Shown: piece by piece, positions 2,075 through 21,701 of the stretch | Layout of the letters: every line of letters begins with the position of its first letter | How positions within the stretch are numbered: position 1 is the stretch's first letter | IMG/VR virus record: IMGVR_UViG_3300025264_000109 | Location: 1 to 24,469 of that record | Reading direction: 5' to 3' (one strand) | DNA from: a virus | DNA length: 24,469 nucleotides | Made by a program: the position numbers and the translations under genes | Notes under the pieces: model-generated | Databases searched by the model: none | The model's input: the letters and a program-made list of their open reading frames with translations, nothing else | Told to the model about the DNA's origin: nothing

Positions 2075-2737
2075 ATGCAATTCGAGATGCAATTTGAGTC
2101 TGTATTTTTAGGACAATCGGTTATAAAATATCAGGTTCCTCTTGAAATTTTTGTTGGACTCAACGAAATTTACGAACATAATAAAAAACATCTACCCAAC
2201 GCCAATAAACAACTCGCTGGAAAGATTCCCGATGAAGCTTCTCTTTTTTATTCTGGGCCTCCTAACAATAAAATGCGGTCGCATAGTTATATATCAGAAG
2301 ATATTTTGAAATGGTTCTATTCTATTTTTGATCATTATTTAGAATGGAATAAGATTCAAGAATATAAAATGGACATTAACTCCATCTGGGTCAATGAAAT
2401 GAAAGCAGGAGACTATAATCCAGTTCACATTCATCAAGGAAAACTCTTCACTGGACTTTCTTCCGTAATGATTCTTAAACTTCCCAAGGATATGGGACCT
2501 GAACTCGCTCGTCCTGATCAACCGATGAACGGGCAACTGCAAATATTAGGAAATGTTAGTGGTCAGTTTGTGACTTCTGATTATTCACCTAAAATGAAGA
2601 TTGGAGATTTTTATATCTTTCCCTATGATATGAGACATGTCGTTTATCCCATGACGAATAAAAAAGCAAAAAGAAGAACACTGGTTTGTAATGTTGATGT
2701 CGCATATCACCCTGTTAAATCAAGGACGGCTCAATGA
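2075..2737 (+). CDS. 2OG-Fe(II) oxygenase-like protein (Oxy_5 type), copy 1
   Basis: 220 residues. The core is WVNEMKAGDYNPVHIHQGK (His118 and His120), then hydrophobic strands, then DFYIFPYDMRHVVYPM (His188) and a basic KRRTLV strand (Arg200/201). This pattern fits the putative 2OG-Fe(II) oxygenase group (Pfam 2OG-FeII_Oxy_5): an HxH or HxD facial triad on a double-stranded beta-helix, a distal His, and an Arg that holds 2-oxoglutarate. Such enzymes hydroxylate proteins, nucleic acids or small molecules; the substrate here is unknown. The first 24 bases are an imperfect 12-base tandem repeat, so Met1 and Met5 are alternative starts. It overlaps the next gene by four bases (ATGA). The family call is good; activity is not shown. 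Confidence 0.75.
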   Translation: MQFEMQFESVFLGQSVIKYQVPLEIFVGLNEIYEHNKKHLPNANKQLAGKIPDEASLFYSGPPNNKMRSHSYISEDILKWFYSIFDHYLEWNKIQEYKMDINSIWVNEMKAGDYNPVHIHQGKLFTGLSSVMILKLPKDMGPELARPDQPMNGQLQILGNVSGQFVTSDYSPKMKIGDFYIFPYDMRHVVYPMTNKKAKRRTLVCNVDVAYHPVKSRTAQ

Positions 2738-3315
2738 TAACAGAACCTAAATGGAAATCTTTACTGGCCAATACTATTGGTCCTTTGTTCACTCCTCAAC
2801 AGTGTCAGGACATTATTGATATGGGTCATCAGCAAAAAGCAGAAAACGCTAAAGTAGGAACTTCTAAAAAAGAAGGTGCTTATGATACCAAAAAACGAAT
2901 CACGACCATCAGTTGGATTCCTTTTACAGCACTACCCGATATGTATAAAATGATTGAACGCAGTATGCTTCAAGCCAACGGAAATCATTTTGGTTATGAG
3001 GGCATGCAACTTACCGAGCCAGCTCAATTTACCGAATATCCTAAAGGAGGGTTTTATGATTGGCATATGGATGCTGATGTCAGCGGTCAGTATGAACCTC
3101 CCGTTAGAAAAATATCAATGACAATTTTACTTTCTCCTGCGAATGAATTTGAAGGAGGGGATCTAGAATTTATGACTCACGGTAATAAACCTCCTCAGCT
3201 CTTACAGGGACAAGCCATTTTCTTTTGTAGTATGATTCGTCACCGGGTGGCTAAAGTTAAGAAAGGTGTCCGACGCTCTTTAGTAATGTGGTTCGGAGGC
3301 CCTCCGTTTAAATGA
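2734..3315 (+). CDS. PKHD-type / prolyl-4-hydroxylase-like 2OG-Fe(II) oxygenase
   Basis: 193 residues, and the clearest oxygenase of the four. FTEYPKGGFYDWHMDAD carries the HxD iron ligands (His111, Asp113). The strand RKISMTILLSPANEFEGGDL is the typical double-stranded beta-helix segment after it. The distal ligand is His170 in MIRHRVAKV, and Arg180/181 in GVRRSLVMWF is placed to bind 2-oxoglutarate. This arrangement matches PKHD-type hydroxylases (PiuC/prolyl-4-hydroxylase-like fold), which use Fe(II), O2 and 2-oxoglutarate to hydroxylate a substrate. No signal peptide is seen, so it should act in the cytoplasm of the infected cell. ATGA overlaps at both ends indicate coupled translation with the flanking oxygenase genes. 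The target, protein or otherwise, cannot be read from the sequence. Confidence 0.85.
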   Translation: MITEPKWKSLLANTIGPLFTPQQCQDIIDMGHQQKAENAKVGTSKKEGAYDTKKRITTISWIPFTALPDMYKMIERSMLQANGNHFGYEGMQLTEPAQFTEYPKGGFYDWHMDADVSGQYEPPVRKISMTILLSPANEFEGGDLEFMTHGNKPPQLLQGQAIFFCSMIRHRVAKVKKGVRRSLVMWFGGPPFK

Positions 3316-3914
3316 ACCGAGAAATTTTATTTCCGACTCCTGTCTATATGAAGATGGTGAAGGATCCTCAAAAATTAAATAAATATTTATTCCCCCTGAT
3401 TAAAGCCTGGAGTAAAAAAGATAAGGGTGAAACCAAAACAAATGCGGGAGGAGGTTGGCACAGTCCCACCGATATGAATTTTAAAGACGAGTATAAACCC
3501 TTGACTGATGAACTCTTTAGTATGCAAGATGAAATTTTTAAAGATTATGGTATGGAACCTAAACCAGGACTCGGTAATATGTGGGCGAACATTAATTATC
3601 CAGGTGCTTATAACAAACAACACATTCATCCTAATTCTCAATGGTCGGGTGTTTATTATGTAAAAGTCCCTAAAAATTCAGGAAATTTATTTGTAGAAGA
3701 TCCAAGACCTGGACCTAATATTATACTTCCTCGAAGAGTTAAAGGAATACCCAGGGCCTTATGGCGCGTGGTGATCTATCCAGCAATCGCAGGACAAATG
3801 ATTATGTTTCCCGCATGGCTCCCTCATGGTGTAGAAATAAATGAATCCAAAGAAAAAGGAGAAAAAAGCTGGCGCGTGTCGGTTTCTTTTAATTTTATTC
3901 AGGTGGATAAATGA
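3312..3914 (+). CDS. 2OG-Fe(II) oxygenase-like protein (Oxy_5 type), copy 2
   Basis: 200 residues. It starts REILFPTPVYMKMV, the usual N-terminal phrase of this family. The core NMWANINYPGAYNKQHIHPN supplies His104 and His106, followed by SGVYYVKVP. AGQMIMFPAWLPHGVEINES supplies the distal His172, and WRVSVSFNFIQ gives Arg188. The match to the 2OG-FeII_Oxy_5 group is stronger than for the 220-residue protein at 2075, and the two are probably distant relatives with an HxH rather than HxD first motif. It is coupled to both neighbours by four-base overlaps (ATGA). The substrate is unknown. Location among virion genes suggests a virion protein as one candidate, but that is only positional. Confidence 0.83.
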   Translation: MNREILFPTPVYMKMVKDPQKLNKYLFPLIKAWSKKDKGETKTNAGGGWHSPTDMNFKDEYKPLTDELFSMQDEIFKDYGMEPKPGLGNMWANINYPGAYNKQHIHPNSQWSGVYYVKVPKNSGNLFVEDPRPGPNIILPRRVKGIPRALWRVVIYPAIAGQMIMFPAWLPHGVEINESKEKGEKSWRVSVSFNFIQVDK

Positions 3915-4336
3915 TCCAAACTATTTATGCAAAATTACCCCGAGAAAAGATTACTTATTTAGAACGTGCTGAATTTATGAATGGCCAAGAGCAATCTTTT
4001 CGGGATGCTTTAACAGCCTCGATGTCCAAACATGGATTTAGAGATCCTGTTTATTGTTGGTATCATAGTAAGAATTGGAAAGATAAAATAAAAGTTATTG
4101 TGGGCAACAATCGTATGGTAGTAGCCAAAGAATTAAATATCCCAATTGTTCCAGCTGTTATTACAAATTTTAAAGCGGATCAGTTTCCTCTAGAAGGAAA
4201 GATTCTAACTACAGATGAAGAGGTAAAGGCCTTATTTTATTTACCTAAAAAACTTCATGTCAGACGAGATGAGAATGGGGATATTGATCAAGTCACACCG
4301 GCTTATTTTCCAACGGTAAAACAACACTATGTTTAA
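3911..4336 (+). CDS. ParB/sulfiredoxin-like domain protein
   Basis: 141 residues. The segment LTASMSKHGFRDPVYCWYHS followed by KIKVIVGNNRMVVAKELNIP and IVPAVI follows the ParB-like nuclease domain: a helix ending in a G.(x)DPV turn, then a GxxR motif (Gly65-Asn-Asn-Arg68) and a helix leading to an IPxVP strand. In chromosomal ParB the GxxR region binds CTP. Stand-alone phage versions have been linked to nucleases, ATPases and DNA-modification genes. No helix-turn-helix partner domain is present, so this is not a partition protein. It sits between the third and fourth oxygenase genes, with overlaps of 4 and 8 bases, and probably works with them. The fold call is fairly secure; biochemical role is open. 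Confidence 0.72.
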   Translation: MIQTIYAKLPREKITYLERAEFMNGQEQSFRDALTASMSKHGFRDPVYCWYHSKNWKDKIKVIVGNNRMVVAKELNIPIVPAVITNFKADQFPLEGKILTTDEEVKALFYLPKKLHVRRDENGDIDQVTPAYFPTVKQHYV

Positions 4337-4970
4337 AACAAAAAAATATCAAGTCATACGTGGAGCGCTTTCCAAAGAGCTAGCAAATTTTATCTTTAAT
4401 TATATGATGCTGCAGCGAGATGCTGTGGATTGGATGGTGAAAAATAATAAAGTTAATGCTTACAATCCCTTTGCTGGGACTCGTGCAGATAGACAAGTAC
4501 CCGGGGTCTATTCTAAATATGGCGATTGGATTATGGAAACTTTACTCATGTACATGATTCCTATTATGAAAACTAAAACAGGAATGGATTTGGTTCCAAC
4601 GTATTCGTACACCCGACTCTATGAAAAAGGAAATATTCTCAGACGGCACAAGGATCGACCGAGCTGTGAAATTTCTACAACCCTCCATCTAGGAGGGGAT
4701 GAATGGCCTATCTTTCTAGACCCAACAGGGGGTAACTTTGTTATTGATGAAGATAAACAAACCATTAAACCTGGAGCTCCGAAAGGAATCCGCGTGGATT
4801 TAAAAGTAGGAGATATGCTGATTTATTCAGGTTGTGAACTCGAGCACTGGCGTGAACCTTTTGAAGGAACCGTGTGTTCTCAAGTCTTTCTACATTATAA
4901 CCATGCCAACGGTCCATTTGCCAAGACGAATCTCTTTGATAAACGCCCCATGCTAGGTGTAAGGAGTTGA
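4329..4970 (+). CDS. 2OG-Fe(II) oxygenase-like protein, HxD type
   Basis: 213 residues. YSYTRLYEKGNILRRHKDRP contains a His107-Lys-Asp109 iron motif after the usual aromatic and basic strand, and EISTTLHLGG continues the beta-helix. The jelly-roll turn VDLKVGDMLIYSGCELEHWR gives the distal His173, followed by FEGTVCSQVFLHYNH. I have seen this arrangement (distal EHWRE, then a QVFLHY strand) in marine phage proteins of the 2OG oxygenase superfamily. A 2-oxoglutarate-binding Arg is not obvious after His173; Arg175 is a candidate. The protein shares little with the three oxygenases before it, so the cassette is not a simple tandem duplication. It overlaps the ParB-like gene by eight bases and ends the operon. 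Confidence 0.75.
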   Translation: MFKTKKYQVIRGALSKELANFIFNYMMLQRDAVDWMVKNNKVNAYNPFAGTRADRQVPGVYSKYGDWIMETLLMYMIPIMKTKTGMDLVPTYSYTRLYEKGNILRRHKDRPSCEISTTLHLGGDEWPIFLDPTGGNFVIDEDKQTIKPGAPKGIRVDLKVGDMLIYSGCELEHWREPFEGTVCSQVFLHYNHANGPFAKTNLFDKRPMLGVRS

Positions 4971-5015: not shown

Positions 5016-7187
5016 ATGTTACATAAAATCAGACTTAAACCTGGACTGGATAAACAATCTTCCGATACAGGAGCTGAAGGGAAATGGGTTAATGCAGATT
5101 ATGCTCGTTTTCGTTATGGCTTTCCTGAAAAAATAGGAGGATGGTCTCAACTCGTTGCAGATAATTTAATCGGAGCTGGACGTGATCAACATACCTGGGT
5201 CGATTTAGCAGGTAATAAATACGCGGCTATTGGAACCAATAAATGTTTATACATTTATTATGAAGGAGCGGTCTATGATATCACTCCTTTAGATACTACC
5301 CGTCAGCAAACGGGTGCCACTTTTACCATGGTCAATACCGATGCAACGGTTACTCTCACTACATCAACAGCGCATGGAGCAGAGACAGGAGATATTATTT
5401 TATTAGACAGTGTTTCCGGGGTTACGGCTTTAGGAACAGGATTTACGGATGCTGATTTTGAAGATACTTTATTTGAAGTCAAAGATGTTCCGAGTGCTAC
5501 CAAGATGGAAATTGAAATGGCAAGTGCAGCCACAGGAGCAGGAAGTGGAGGATCTACTACCATCGATTTTTATTATGTGATTGGACCGATCAGTCAAGGA
5601 TATGGTTATGGTTTTGGTACTAATACTTTTGGAGGATATACGACACCCCTTACGACAACGACTATCAATAATGCCGGGGTCTTAGCGGCTGGGGCAACCT
5701 CTTGTATATTTACCAGTACCTCTGCTTTTCCTACCACTGCTGCCGGCGGTGGAACGATTTTAATCGAAAGTGAATTAATTACTTACACAACCAACAACAC
5801 CGGAACCAATACGCTTTCTGGATTTAGTCGAGGAGCCCATGGGACGAGTGATGTTGAGCATGCCAATTCAACTTTAACTTATGATGCCACAGACTTTGTA
5901 GGATGGGGAAGTGCCAGTACCAATTCAAACATTGTTATTGAACCCGGTCAATGGAGACTTTTAAACTATGGTGAAGATCTATTAGCCTTAGTTCATAATA
6001 AAAAAATATTTAAATGGGAACCTTCGGTTCCTAATTTAACCGTACGCGCGGTAGTTATAACCGGAACTGAAGTTCCAACCGCATCAAGAGACATGGTTGT
6101 CTCGGTACCCGATCGACATTTAATTTGTATTGGAACCGAAACCACGCTTCAGACTGCAAATACTCAAGATGATATGTTTGTCCGTTGGTCGAATCAAGAA
6201 TCTCAAACGGTATGGACACCCACTGCAACCAATACGGCAGGTAGTCAACGATTAACCGATGGCTCCAAACTGATTGGAGCTATTGTAGGAAAGACCGCTG
6301 TTTATCTGTGGTCGGATACGGCTATGTACACCATGAAATTTATTGGTCAGCCTTTTACTTTTGGTTTTACTCAAGTGGGAACCAACTGTGGGATGTCGAG
6401 TCAACATGCAGCCGCTGAAGTAGATGGGATTGCTTATTGGATGGGACCGACAGGTTTCTTTAACTTTAATGGAGGTCGAGTTCAAACGATGCCCTGTCTG
6501 GTAGAAGATTATGTCTTTGAAGATATTAATGCCAATGCGAATCAACAAATCCATGTTGCCGTTAATGCTCTCTTTGGAGAAATTACTTGGTTCTATCCAA
6601 GTAGTGGTTCAGACTATGTAGACCGATCGGTGACTTATAACTATATGGAATCCACTCCGGATAGTCCTATCTGGTATACATCATCCTTAGCTCGTTCCAC
6701 TTGGACGATTGAAGGGGTTTATAATAAACCGTTTGCAACCGAATATAAAAACAGTTTAGCTCCGGATAATCCAACCGTAGTCGGTATTTCTGCGGGAGGG
6801 AGTTATTATTGGGAACAAGAAAAAGGAACCGATGAAGTCTTTACCACAGGAACAACGAATGCCATTGCAGGCTATGTGGAATCAGGAGATTATGATATTG
6901 GAGGACCGGAAGGAGAACAGGGTGAAGGAGAATTTATGATGAGAATATCTAGAATTATTCCCGACTATGGTGCTCAAACAGGAGACTCTAGAATTACTTT
7001 AAGTACAAAAGCTTTTCCAAGTAGTACGGCGGTGGCAACCAATCATACCGCAACAACCACGAGCACTCAACTTTTTACTCGAGCCCGTGCACGACAGATT
7101 GCGATTAAAGTAGGTAATATCAGTACGGGTCAAAGTTGGAGAATGGGAACGTTTAGATTAGACATTCATCCAGGAGGCAGAAGATAA
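5016..7187 (+). CDS. Large beta-rich virion protein, probable tail/neck (stabilisation or nozzle-like) protein
   Basis: 723 residues, rich in Thr, Gly, Ser and Ala, with no signal peptide or membrane segment. The start MLHKIRLKPGLDKQSSDTGA, then RFRYGFPEKIGGW, DQHTWVDLAGNKYAAIGTNK and LYIYYEGAVYDITPL, is a series I associate with podovirus-like tail proteins of the packaged-DNA stabilisation or tail-nozzle kind. In those, repeated short beta strands form a propeller around the DNA channel. Later segments (WSDTAMYTMKFIGQPFTFGF, YWMGPTGFFNFNGGRVQTMP) fit the same beta-propeller style. The C-terminus ends DIHPGGRR. It heads the main structural operon and overlaps the next ATG by one base. Virion location is likely; the exact ring or tail position is inferred. 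Confidence 0.65.
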   Translation: MLHKIRLKPGLDKQSSDTGAEGKWVNADYARFRYGFPEKIGGWSQLVADNLIGAGRDQHTWVDLAGNKYAAIGTNKCLYIYYEGAVYDITPLDTTRQQTGATFTMVNTDATVTLTTSTAHGAETGDIILLDSVSGVTALGTGFTDADFEDTLFEVKDVPSATKMEIEMASAATGAGSGGSTTIDFYYVIGPISQGYGYGFGTNTFGGYTTPLTTTTINNAGVLAAGATSCIFTSTSAFPTTAAGGGTILIESELITYTTNNTGTNTLSGFSRGAHGTSDVEHANSTLTYDATDFVGWGSASTNSNIVIEPGQWRLLNYGEDLLALVHNKKIFKWEPSVPNLTVRAVVITGTEVPTASRDMVVSVPDRHLICIGTETTLQTANTQDDMFVRWSNQESQTVWTPTATNTAGSQRLTDGSKLIGAIVGKTAVYLWSDTAMYTMKFIGQPFTFGFTQVGTNCGMSSQHAAAEVDGIAYWMGPTGFFNFNGGRVQTMPCLVEDYVFEDINANANQQIHVAVNALFGEITWFYPSSGSDYVDRSVTYNYMESTPDSPIWYTSSLARSTWTIEGVYNKPFATEYKNSLAPDNPTVVGISAGGSYYWEQEKGTDEVFTTGTTNAIAGYVESGDYDIGGPEGEQGEGEFMMRISRIIPDYGAQTGDSRITLSTKAFPSSTAVATNHTATTTSTQLFTRARARQIAIKVGNISTGQSWRMGTFRLDIHPGGRR

Positions 7188-7356: not shown

Positions 7357-7689
7357 ATGGCTAATAAATATATTAATAAAGCATTTGATTTAAGCACAAC
7401 GGACGCAACCACAATCTATACCGTCCCTGCAGAAACGGTAGCGATTGTTAAAGCCATACAAGGTTTTAATGATACGGCGAGTGCCGTTACCATCACCATG
7501 TCTTTTACCGATGCCAGTGCTTCAACCACTTATGATATTGGTTATGCCACGAGTAGTACGGTTCAACAATTTAGTTTACTTACCGACAATCTTTTGGTGT
7601 TGGAAGAGAGTGATGTTTTAAAACTGACCGCCAGTGTCGGGACTCAAGTGACTGGTGTTGCTAGTATCCTAGAACAGGATCGAACGTAA
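7357..7689 (+). CDS. Small beta-sandwich-like virion protein
   Basis: 110 residues, dominated by Thr, Ser, Ala and Val, with alternating hydrophobic and polar residues typical of beta strands: DATTIYTVPAETVAIVKAIQ, then GFNDTASAVTITMSFTDASA, then DVLKLTASVGTQVTGVASIL. Similar proteins of about 100 residues with a TIYTVP-like opening occur in phage structural clusters, where they are usually called virion structural proteins. There is no signal peptide. The TAA overlaps the next ATG by one base. Head decoration, neck or tail-tip are all possible. Structural protein is likely; the specific role is unknown. Confidence 0.55.
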   Translation: MANKYINKAFDLSTTDATTIYTVPAETVAIVKAIQGFNDTASAVTITMSFTDASASTTYDIGYATSSTVQQFSLLTDNLLVLEESDVLKLTASVGTQVTGVASILEQDRT

Positions 7690-19693: not shown

Positions 19694-19719
19694 AACTGTC
19701 TAACAAGGAGGTTAAAATG
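19685..19719 (+). promoter_or_regulatory. Possible hairpin covering Hsp20 start and ribosome binding site
   Basis: CATTTTA (19685-19691) is fully complementary to TAAAATG (19713-19719), which contains the Hsp20 start codon. AAGGAGG (19705-19711) lies mostly in the loop. A further two pairs (19695-19696 with 19711-19712) could form after a bulge. The stem is A+U-rich, so it would melt easily. It shares bases with the terminator 3' arm and the two folds exclude each other. It is a candidate only. Confidence 0.35.
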
Positions 19720-20169
19720 ACATTCGATAAATTACCATCAATCTTTAAACAACTTAGACCTGTCTCAATCGGGTTCGATAATCTTTTCGATCACTTCGAA
19801 AACTTTTTCGATGAGTACGACAATGTTCGGTCTTCGCTGACAGCTAACTTTCCTTTTTATAATATTGTAAAGAAGGAAAATAATAAGTTCGATATTGAAG
19901 TAGCTCTTGCAGGCTATGACAAGAAGGACATTGCTGTAGAATATGCAGATAGTATACTAACTATAAAATCTGTTAAGGAAACTAAATCCGATAAAGAAAA
20001 AGACGGAGTGATTCATCAAGGAATTGCTAAGAGATCTTTTACAAAAGCGTTCACTGTTTCTGATGACGTAGAAATCAAAGGTGCTGAGTTAAAAAACGGA
20101 TTATTAAAAATATCTTTAGAAAAGATTATTCCTGAAGGCAAAAAGCCAAAAACTATTGCAATAAAATAA
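19717..20169 (+). CDS. Hsp20/alpha-crystallin small heat-shock protein
   Basis: 150 residues, the usual size. The alpha-crystallin domain lies at about 50-140: NIVKKENNKFDIEVALAGYD, then KKDIAVEYADSILTIKSVKE, then HQGIAKRSFTKAFTVSDDVE and GAELKNGLLKISLEK. The terminal KTIAIK gives the I-x-I motif (147-149) that docks neighbouring subunits. These ATP-independent chaperones hold unfolding proteins in the cytoplasm, and phage versions (known in cyanophages) may assist virion assembly or stressed replication. AAGGAGG at 19705-19711 is the strongest ribosome binding site in the window. It is a one-gene unit between a terminator-like hairpin and the convergent helicase. Confidence is high. Confidence 0.92.
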   Translation: MTFDKLPSIFKQLRPVSIGFDNLFDHFENFFDEYDNVRSSLTANFPFYNIVKKENNKFDIEVALAGYDKKDIAVEYADSILTIKSVKETKSDKEKDGVIHQGIAKRSFTKAFTVSDDVEIKGAELKNGLLKISLEKIIPEGKKPKTIAIK

Positions 20170-20221: not shown

Positions 20222-21652
20222 TTAAATCCAATCTTTTAATTCTTCACCCATCACTTGGGTAGCAATATTAATTTTCTTGCGGAGGGCTTTGACGATTCTT
20301 TCGTCAACCGTGTCTTCCGCGAGAATATCTATATAGGTCATTGGAAATTTTTGACCAATACGATCAATTCTTGCTTCAGACTGAGTTCTCTTTTCTAGAT
20401 CATATCCGTTAGAATAATAAATCATGGTTGAAGCTGCGGTGAGTGTAATTCCGTATCCTCCCGTTTGTGGTGTTCCCACTAAAAATCTTGTTTCATCTTT
20501 AGTTTGGAATCGTTCTAAATTAGTCTGACGTATTTCATTTGGAGTTAAACCATAATAAGTGACCACAGACTTTTCCCCATATTTTTCTTTAATCGCTTTT
20601 ACAATCGTTTGAACATCAAATTGATAATGAGCCCAGATCACTGCTTTTCCTTCAAGTTCATCTAACACTTCCAACAACTGAGATAATCTATTATTTTTTA
20701 TAGGTTGAATTGAATCATCATCTGCTTTAAAATGTCCGCACGTTATTTGATGCAAACGCATTAATTGTGTTAATGCGGATGCTGTAGTTATAACTTTTCC
20801 ATTCATTTCTGCTAATGCCAGTTGTTTCATTTGTCTATAAATTTTCTGTTGTTCAGGGGTTAACGTGATGATTCTTTTCATGTATGTTTTAGCTGGAAGA
20901 TCTAGGCACTCGTCTTTGAGAACGCGATAGGAGAAGGGCTTAAGTTTTTCCGACAGTTCTGCAAGGTTTTTATAACCTACAACGAGCTGCACAGATCTTC
21001 CGTTAAAATGAGCAGTACGCAGCGTGGCGTATCGAGATCGAAACGTATAATAAGAAGAATGATGCAAGAGATAAGGATCAAGGAACTCACATTGTTTATA
21101 AAGATCTAAAGGGGATTTTGTCACAGGGGATCCAGTTAAAATTCGACGATATTTGGCATGAGTCGCCAAGTTAATAATATTTTTGGTTCGTTTAGCTTCA
21201 GGATTTTTAATCGTAGTACTTTCATCCACCACCATAAACGTTTCATGACAACTGAGAAACTTTCGAGCAAATTCCACACCTTTAGTCGTGCTAAAAGCCT
21301 CGACATTCATAATAAGAATATGAAGATTTACACCGGTTTCAAACAAAGTGTCCAGTCTTTTCTTTTGTTTTTGATTAATAGCCGCTTGCCATAAAACCAT
21401 CTTGTAGTGAATATGATGAGGCAGATGAGCAGGGAATTCTTGAGAATACCAAGTTTTATATACGCCTTTCGGAGCTACAATTAAGGCTCCATTTACTTTT
21501 CCTTGATCATAAAGCATGGCTAAATTATCAATAGCTACTTTGGTTTTACCCGTACCCATTTCCATAAATAGAGCATAAACTTTTTTCTGCCATGATTTTT
21601 CCAAAGCAGTGACCTGATGCCCATAGGGCTCTGTCTTAAATTTATAATGCAT
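20222..21652 (-). CDS. SNF2-family DNA helicase/translocase
   Basis: 476 residues from ATG (complement of 21650-21652). A TTG start 18 bases upstream would fall near the predicted transcription start and is rejected. An N-terminal PYGHQ is followed by motif I FMEMGTGKTKVA (Gly33-Thr37), a DEAH-like box VVDEST (143-146), motif III TGSP (173-176), and the C-terminal domain with motif V GGYGITLTAAS and motif VI RIDRIGQ (428-434). The length and motifs fit compact phage SNF2/DEAD-like ATPases that translocate on double-stranded DNA and may remodel forks or displace proteins. It is the only minus-strand gene here. It is transcribed from a promoter shared with the replication operon and ends convergent with Hsp20. 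Confidence 0.9.
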   Translation of the reverse strand: MHYKFKTEPYGHQVTALEKSWQKKVYALFMEMGTGKTKVAIDNLAMLYDQGKVNGALIVAPKGVYKTWYSQEFPAHLPHHIHYKMVLWQAAINQKQKKRLDTLFETGVNLHILIMNVEAFSTTKGVEFARKFLSCHETFMVVDESTTIKNPEAKRTKNIINLATHAKYRRILTGSPVTKSPLDLYKQCEFLDPYLLHHSSYYTFRSRYATLRTAHFNGRSVQLVVGYKNLAELSEKLKPFSYRVLKDECLDLPAKTYMKRIITLTPEQQKIYRQMKQLALAEMNGKVITTASALTQLMRLHQITCGHFKADDDSIQPIKNNRLSQLLEVLDELEGKAVIWAHYQFDVQTIVKAIKEKYGEKSVVTYYGLTPNEIRQTNLERFQTKDETRFLVGTPQTGGYGITLTAASTMIYYSNGYDLEKRTQSEARIDRIGQKFPMTYIDILAEDTVDERIVKALRKKINIATQVMGEELKDWI

Positions 21653-21663
21653 AGTCTTCTTTC

Positions 21664-21701
21664 TTGACAATAGAAGTATATTATCTTATATGGTATGTCA
21701 A
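21664..21701. promoter_or_regulatory. Overlapping face-to-face sigma-70-like promoters
   Basis: Plus strand: TTGACA 21664-21669, 17 bases, TATATG 21687-21692, start near 21699. Minus strand: TTGACA (complement of 21696-21701), 15 bases, TATACT (complement of 21675-21680), start near 21668. The two -35 hexamers are exact inverse copies at the outer ends of 38 bases, and each -10 lies inside. RNA polymerase should not be able to occupy both at once. The plus promoter reads into the replication operon and the minus promoter into the helicase. Confidence 0.7.

Follow-up and report, generated by a model that had tools for sequence, protein, structure and literature searches.

Why should a virus carry four different 2-oxoglutarate (2OG)-Fe(II) oxygenase-type genes and a ParB-like gene side by side in a single overlapping run? 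The question is raised by IMGVR_UViG_3300025264_000109, an IMG/VR virus record that was analysed in its entirety (24,469 bases, hereafter the window), in which an island of five + strand genes occupies positions 2075 to 4970. The other genes of the window, which encode virion structural proteins, an endolysin, Hsp20 and a helicase, together with the Pelagibacter phage relatives of the last island gene, suggest that it comes from a pelagiphage-like tailed phage. The answer that we tentatively prefer, at somewhat less than an even chance, is that the genes form a conserved, modular protein-modification island of marine pelagiphage-like phages, set among structural genes, with the ParB-like domain as a nucleotide-binding partner. 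The genes of the island are the following:

2075-2737, + strand: oxygenase 1 (P0001, 220 amino acids), 2OG-FeII_Oxy_5 type, H118-x-H120 ... H188 ... R200; PF13759, E 8.2e-10; phrog_81
2734-3315, + strand: oxygenase 2 (P0002, 193 amino acids), 2OG-FeII_Oxy_3 or PKHD-like, H111-x-D113 ... H170 ... R180; PF13640, E 3.9e-13
3312-3914, + strand: oxygenase 3 (P0003, 200 amino acids), 2OG-FeII_Oxy_5 / TIGR02466, H104-x-H106 ... H172; PF13759, E 4e-23
3911-4336, + strand: ParB-like protein (P0004, 141 amino acids), a ParB/sulfiredoxin-type nucleotide-binding domain only, with a GNNR motif; from profiles, an AlphaFold2 model, Foldseek and VIA
4329-4970, + strand: oxygenase-fold protein 4 (gene 5, P0005, 213 amino acids), H107-x-D109 ... 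H173-W-R175; phrog_2954, E 1.7e-49; AlphaFold2 model and structural matches

The initial annotation had read this layout from the letters alone, as oxygenase-type genes with HxH, HxD, HxH and HxD first motifs and a GNNR ParB-like gene, and the open reading frames (ORFs, successive overlaps of 4, 4, 4 and 8 nucleotides), Pfam, profiles and AlphaFold2 models bear it out. Each protein found its profile: Pfam families for genes 1 to 3, all above cut-off, ParB and sulfiredoxin (Srx) profiles for gene 4, and phrog_2954 for gene 5. In addition, TIGR02466 (NCBIfam) matches P0003 above cut-off, the NCBIfam Fe2+-dependent dioxygenase models match P0002 below it, and the PADLOC generic 2OG model from anti-phage defence matches P0002 and, weakly, P0005 (E 0.0011). 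Degenerate metal residues in close relatives had been named as grounds for doubting a joint enzymatic system, and what was found is invariance: H118, H120, H188 and R200 of P0001 in 113 of 113 distinct relatives, H111, D113, H170 and R180 of P0002 in 199 of 199, H104, H106 and H172 of P0003 in 217 of 217, and R96, H107, D109, R110, H173 and R175 of P0005 in 248 of 248. R188 of P0003, at the 2OG-binding Arg position, is aligned in 151 of the 217, with gaps in the other 66. Median ratios of nonsynonymous to synonymous substitution (dN/dS) were 0.12, 0.13, 0.09 and 0.11 for P0001, P0002, P0003 and P0005 and 0.18 for the ParB-like gene, rough values from 28-96 pairs per gene with the proportion of synonymous differences (pS) below 0.6 and high dS, which suggest, roughly, purifying selection on the island genes. 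The judgement that the oxygenases are too different for tandem duplication needs qualifying for genes 1 and 3, which share PF13759, P0003 picking up P0001 weakly (32% over about 50 amino acids, E 2.9e-4), and which may be old paralogues.

Evidence for a joint system was sought in the order of the genes across relatives, in loci fetched by similarity to island genes, some of them overlapping, so that all counts describe a non-random sample. With P0001, 80 viral loci were fetched, 73 with a close relative and 7 with a distant match. The close relatives with at least 2.6 kb downstream numbered 59 (14 were too short), and all 59 (55 distinct sequences) hold the order P0001-P0002-P0003-P0005, exactly in 58 and with an additional P0003-like gene at the end in one; the distant loci (L162-L168) match P0001 weakly and lack the arrangement. 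Among 80 loci fetched with P0005, 35 could be assessed (3.5 kb upstream) and 32 have the same four-gene order. The relative of P0005 from HTVC023P fetched another 80 loci, 48 of them assessable, with the order 2-3-5 in 47 and 3-5 in one. Oxygenase-type genes number four in 43, five in 13 and six in 3 of the 59 distinct complete islands. The neighbourhood survey that the initial annotation called for thus found strong co-occurrence, the opposite of the rarity that would have spoken against it; the conserved order is beyond chance and is real evidence for a joint system. The P0005 and P0002 families are further tied together by their fusion in cyanophage NC_047712.1, where a single coding sequence (149534-150622), annotated as 'ferrochelatase', has one half that resembles P0005 and another that resembles P0002; no fusions were found among the ORFs of the fetched loci. 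A scan of bacterial genomes for the P0005 family gave 16 loci. Other cassette oxygenase families are present in 10, and these look like phage DNA in metagenome-assembled or single-cell genomes; the ORFs of two of the other six (L307 and L308) gave no functional hint.

The last gene of the island bears another name in print. Its family, phrog_2954, is labelled 'ferrochelatase', a membership that had been missed in the initial annotation and a label that is also found in published pelagiphage work. At E 0.1, Pfam returned no match for P0005 or for four relatives (from HTVC008M, syn9, S-RIM32 and HTVC023P), and the ferrochelatase family PF00762 was found in 0 of 13 island-bearing records, its control being positive in 8 of 14 genomes. 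An AlphaFold2 model of P0005 from 38 sequences (predicted local distance difference test, pLDDT, 89.4; predicted template modelling score, pTM, 0.87) had as its best Foldseek match (E 1.4e-9) the prolyl hydroxylase (P4H) of Pseudomonas putida, of which one entry was solved with EF-Tu. VIA gave a Z of 16.6 to SnoN (root-mean-square deviation, rmsd, 3.4 over 190) and of 16.1 to P4H (rmsd 2.9 over 159), and PHD2 was also among the structural matches. No chelatase stands among the best 50 rows of either program; in these rows, 8fni is a chain of a trypanosome RNA-editing complex and the rest are oxygenases or entries that are uncharacterised or labelled as oxygenases. P0005 has the fold and the HxD...H triad in common with P. 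putida P4H and PHD2 and differs from them in sequence (12-17% identity in the prolyl hydroxylase rows) and in lacking an Arg where 2OG is usually bound. A sequence search of the P0005 alignment against solved structures gave three chance-level matches, to Mn transporter subunits. Ferrochelatase identity is thus unsupported by Pfam and PF00762, the predicted fold is of the prolyl hydroxylase type, and gene 5 is probably not a ferrochelatase.

The ParB-like protein P0004 matches ParB_N below the Pfam threshold (E 0.019), and its profile matches are ParB, Noc, KorB and sulfiredoxin chains, the best in sequence being Myxococcus xanthus ParB (E 2.6e-11). Its AlphaFold2 model (pLDDT 94.8) retrieved ParB, Noc, PadC, Srx, SerK and SbnI in Foldseek and VIA, the N-terminal nucleotide-binding fold of ParB at a VIA Z of 8.3 (rmsd 3.3 over 84), and its predicted assignment as a ParB/Srx-type domain is supported. 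No helix-turn-helix is present: the protein ends at residue 141, the ParB match covers profile positions 8-89, and past residue 90 the model has just two short helices (102-106 and 133-140). The fold and the G-x-x-R motif are common to P0004, to the CTPase domains of ParB, Noc and KorB, and to PadC, which is a ParB-like domain without the DNA-binding part. P0004 differs from ParB in its full length of 141 amino acids, in a genomic partner that is an oxygenase island and not ParA, and in the residue aligned to M. xanthus E93, which we take to be the catalytic Glu of the GERR motif. That residue is N66, and the position holds Asn in 53 of 58 relatives and Gln, Lys or His in 5. The catalytic Cys of sulfiredoxin lies within a G-C-H-R motif, and none of the 58 relatives has a Cys at N66 or N67 of the GNNR motif.

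A tblastn search of 50,697 phage records with P0004 gave no match at E 1e-3. In the fetched loci, a ParB-like gene lies within 1.3 kb of 36 of the 59 distinct complete islands: 21 have it within the cassette, 19 have it upstream of P0001 and 1 has it downstream, and in 5 there are at least two copies. Conversely, cassette oxygenases are present in 56 of 60 loci with ParB-like relatives, the four exceptions (L207-L210) being just 31-33% identical, over part of the protein. Separate searches for two further ParB-like subfamilies, which had first been seen in the island, found cassette oxygenases alongside one of them in 26 of 28 loci (25 strong cases and a partial one; in the remaining two the available DNA stops within a sulfotransferase-type gene) and alongside the other in 19 of 19; these ParB-like scans used short peptide patterns and are biased to close relatives. 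Where no ParB-like gene stands between them, P0003 and P0005 overlap directly, mostly by 4 nucleotides (75 of 149 adjacent pairs), as expected if the ParB-like gene is a removable module. On these counts, the gene is optional yet island-bound. ParB-like and sulfotransferase genes occur together in 17 of the 59 distinct complete islands, ParB-like alone in 19, sulfotransferase alone in 4 and neither in 19, an association (Fisher p 0.026, uncorrected for relatedness) that is not relied on here. In two loci, a 202-amino-acid protein with an NIDEHHD motif lies between oxygenase 3 and the ParB-like gene (L192:5278-5886 and L190:5371-5979); the L192 copy has no Pfam match.

The surroundings of the island are also conserved, and in the window they consist of the following:

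1405-2073, + strand: left neighbour of the island, with a weak phrog_1409 match (E 3.9e-4)
5016-7187, + strand: right neighbour of the island, a virion structural protein (phrog_3287, E 2e-81)

Where more than 1.5 kb of sequence precedes oxygenase 1, a homologue of the left neighbour lies there in 89 of 93 loci; where more than 1.5 kb follows the homologue of P0005, a homologue of the virion structural gene lies downstream of it in 154 of 174, at a median distance of 50 nucleotides. Related islands hold extra genes, for which one representative per cluster was scanned. A sulfotransferase (PF03567) follows P0005 with a 1-nucleotide overlap in 32 of 34 adjacent pairs, and in other relatives a sulfotransferase of PF00685/PF13469 precedes P0001. 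Additional oxygenases (PF13640 and DUF6445) and one GIY-YIG-like gene, the latter below cut-off, were also found. Between oxygenases 2 and 3 of two HTVC023P-like islands there is a tryptophan halogenase (L242:1629-3113, PF04820, E 9.3e-111, and its sequence relative L288:2662-4149). Upstream of the island, at L087:3469-4189, a small P-loop kinase (AAA_33 / APS_kinase) is followed by a cytidylyltransferase-like (nucleotidyltransferase-like) gene, each found in five loci, and the pair could feed in activated sulfate or another nucleotide donor.

The initial annotation had left the target of the oxygenases open between DNA and a protein such as a virion component, and the protein target gains some support, because related islands carry sulfotransferases and a tryptophan halogenase, because the fold of P0005 matches prolyl hydroxylases, and because the island adjoins a virion structural gene. 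In the protein-modification reading that we prefer, the island enzymes would be produced together with the virion proteins, and the predicted hydroxylases would act on protein side chains, most likely those of a protein of the head or tail; in some relatives, sulfation of the newly formed hydroxyls might follow. More weakly, the ParB-like domain, which has no DNA-binding part and whose gene adjoins oxygenases 3 and 4 or lies upstream of oxygenase 1, might bind a nucleotide and, as an adaptor or switch, hold or license one of the enzymes rather than act as a DNA guide. It is unlikely, though worth stating, that the full picture is an assembly line for decorating phage structural proteins, with hydroxylases and in some relatives sulfotransferases or a halogenase, under the control of a separate nucleotide switch with the ParB fold, which would have given up DNA binding and of which three diverged subfamilies were recruited or diversified in the island.

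Besides the non-random sampling, several observations weigh against protein modification by a joint island. ORF overlaps of 1-8 nucleotides are common elsewhere in the window (at 7689, 9595, 10485, 16426, 16632, 17653, 19062 and 22093, among others), so overlap alone is a weak sign of a joint system, and it was for this reason that conserved order was tested instead. That order has exceptions: among the 35 P0005 loci, one reads 2-1-3-5 and two lack P0001, P0002 is missing from 1 of 59 complete islands, and P0001 is absent from all 48 assessable HTVC023P-type loci. Since these loci do without P0001, genes 2-3-5 are the wider core and P0001 is an addition in the lineage of the window; a universal four-gene order is thereby rejected. 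At the usual distance past its distal His, P0005 has V, C, S and Q (182-185) and no basic residue, so its use of 2OG is inferred, and the invariant R96, R110 and R175 could serve as 2OG-binding substitutes. The part of the earlier interpretation that was weakened is the ParB-like protein as a guide of the oxygenases: in addition to the absent helix-turn-helix and the Asn at the catalytic Glu, a ParB-like gene is missing from the 1.3 kb around 23 of the 59 complete islands, so it cannot be their general guide. Neither a sulfotransferase nor a halogenase is encoded in the window, whose island also lacks the other extra genes of its relatives, and the position beside virion genes may reflect no more than an open site for insertion.

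The strongest rival is a host-directed, auxiliary metabolic role, in which the oxygenases would target host metabolites or proteins, or would draw down 2-oxoglutarate or use iron, and so reprogram the infected cell. This is the usual reading in passages of PMC3037559, PMC9599517 and PMC11561400, which treat 2OG-Fe(II) oxygenases as auxiliary metabolic genes of cyanophages and pelagiphages, and a host protein is a possible target in view of the top Foldseek row of P0005, a bacterial prolyl hydroxylase with EF-Tu. Simple consumption of 2OG would not, however, call for the four to six oxygenase-type genes of each complete island or for metal sites kept intact across the four core families, and the iron and heme half of the argument rests on the 'ferrochelatase', which the sequence and fold tests did not support; on balance we regard this role as unlikely. 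Quite unlikely, too, is a reading that concerns the ParB-like protein, which would bind ATP or another nucleotide and phosphorylate the hydroxylated product or a partner, in the manner of SerK, SbnI and sulfiredoxin. These three do stand beside ParB and PadC among the fold rows, E27, G42, P46, G65 and R68 are invariant in 58 of 58 members of the main subfamily, and three diverged ParB-like subfamilies are common to the island; yet conservation of E21 and E27 does not extend to all of them, and ParB is the best sequence match of P0004.

Accretion, with the locus as a hot spot that collects unrelated useful genes lacking a joint function, would account for the wide diversity of inserted genes (sulfotransferases, DUF6445, GIY-YIG-like, halogenase) and for the coming and going of the ParB-like genes and P0001. 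It sits poorly with the core order in 59 of 59 P0001 loci and 47 of 48 HTVC023P-type loci, with the existence of a fusion of two families and with ParB-like subfamilies that stay with the island, and we consider it improbable. Least credible, and very improbable, is DNA base modification, by which the oxygenases would oxidise bases to which the ParB-like protein brings them. P0004 matches weakly a DNA methyltransferase family (phrog_498, E 3.3e-4) and a PADLOC methyltransferase model (E 0.0036), and thymidine hypermodification genes are reported in some HTVC023P-type phages in passages of PMC9599517. Against this, the link that the initial annotation drew to DNA-modification systems found no backing in C5-methyltransferase (PF00145, 0 of 13, control positive in 10 of 14) or thymidylate-synthase (PF00303, 0 of 13, control positive in 9 of 14) families, zero counts that lower the DNA reading in island-bearing records that may be fragments. 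The ParB-like protein has no DNA-binding domain, and prolyl hydroxylases predominate among the structural neighbours of P0005. Tet_JBP (PF12851) and HMUDK (PF18723) were found in 0 of 13 records with equally silent controls and are not counted; PF12851 gave no Pfam match in P0001-P0005.

The kind of system to which the island belongs is already known, in that multi-oxygenase clusters are present in cultured marine phages; this analysis adds the partnership with ParB-like proteins, the order of the four genes in the lineage of the window and the predicted oxygenase fold of the so-called ferrochelatase. In Pelagibacter phage HTVC008M, five overlapping oxygenase-type genes adjoin a head-tail adaptor gene, and the cultured phages HTVC023P and HTVC033P carry three-oxygenase versions of the island. 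Like the window, HTVC008M (gp68-72), HTVC023P (gp65-67) and syn9 (gp45-54) have several 2OG-Fe(II) oxygenase-type genes that overlap or adjoin one another, with the phrog_2954-type gene last; unlike the window, these stretches have no annotated ParB-like gene. The window adds to them the P0001 family, which 10 of 50,697 phage records match (best identity 35%), and the ParB-like family, for which those records gave no match at E 1e-3. In syn9, gp51 and gp53 (L292:4291-4809 and L292:5414-5998), annotated as 'DNA endonuclease V', match PF13640 weakly and below cut-off (E 0.0019 and 0.0003) as well as the profile for the extra oxygenases of the island (E 8e-14 and 2e-14), and may be another misnamed oxygenase. 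Between them lies gp52 (L292:4806-5417), which is annotated as 'minor coat protein' and which the DUF6445 profile of the island matches (E 1e-31).

In the literature, passages of PMC9599517 describe eight kinds of 2OG-Fe(II) oxygenase genes in HTVC023P-type pelagiphages, often near one another and near 'ferrochelatases', state that a ferrochelatase is always accompanied by an adjoining oxygenase, and read the phrog_2954-type gene as a ferrochelatase for heme insertion. Excerpts of PMC11561400 report 'ferrochelatase' and 2OG oxygenase as enriched in seasonal viruses, naming phrog_2954 and phrog_61, and part of PMC3037559 lists cyanophage 'ferrochelatase domain' and 2OG oxygenase genes. The gene families and co-location of the pelagiphage pairs in PMC9599517 and PMC11561400, as far as those excerpts go, are those of the window; in the former the oxygenases are nearby and not adjacent, whereas in the window they overlap, and phrog_2954 is a ferrochelatase in both papers and an oxygenase fold in the window model. 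Parts of PMC12753301 and PMC10452541 held nothing decisive. No paper was found in the library searched that joins ParB with 2OG-Fe oxygenases in phages, which is not proof of absence, that joins ParB-like proteins with a dioxygenase and DNA modification, that links a cyanophage halogenase with a sulfotransferase, or that links a virion protein with prolyl hydroxylase and oxoglutarate.

Elsewhere in the window, a short ORF at 1229-1381 repeats, in a by-eye reading, the N-terminal module (MATY...KG...EGQ.W.N...) of the protein encoded at 204-1229, as if by partial duplication of a fibre-type gene. The small heat-shock protein of the Hsp20 type is encoded at 19717-20169 (phrog_432, E 1e-41), and the helicase gene at 20222-21670 on the - strand (phrog_62, E 2.6e-120), as the largest minus-strand ORF there. 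Promoter-like sites between 1200 and 5300 number 19 against 13.3 expected (standard deviation 3.7) and were not used as evidence, and Rfam gave 0 matches within the window.

The hosts of pelagiphages belong to one of the most abundant groups of bacteria, and published work reads the oxygenase and 'ferrochelatase' genes of these phages as genes of host metabolism. Should the final cassette gene encode an oxygenase and not a ferrochelatase, the heme and iron story that rests on it needs revision. If it is true that the island modifies virion proteins, phages would possess a protein-modification system of several enzymes, and the ParB fold would have a new function.

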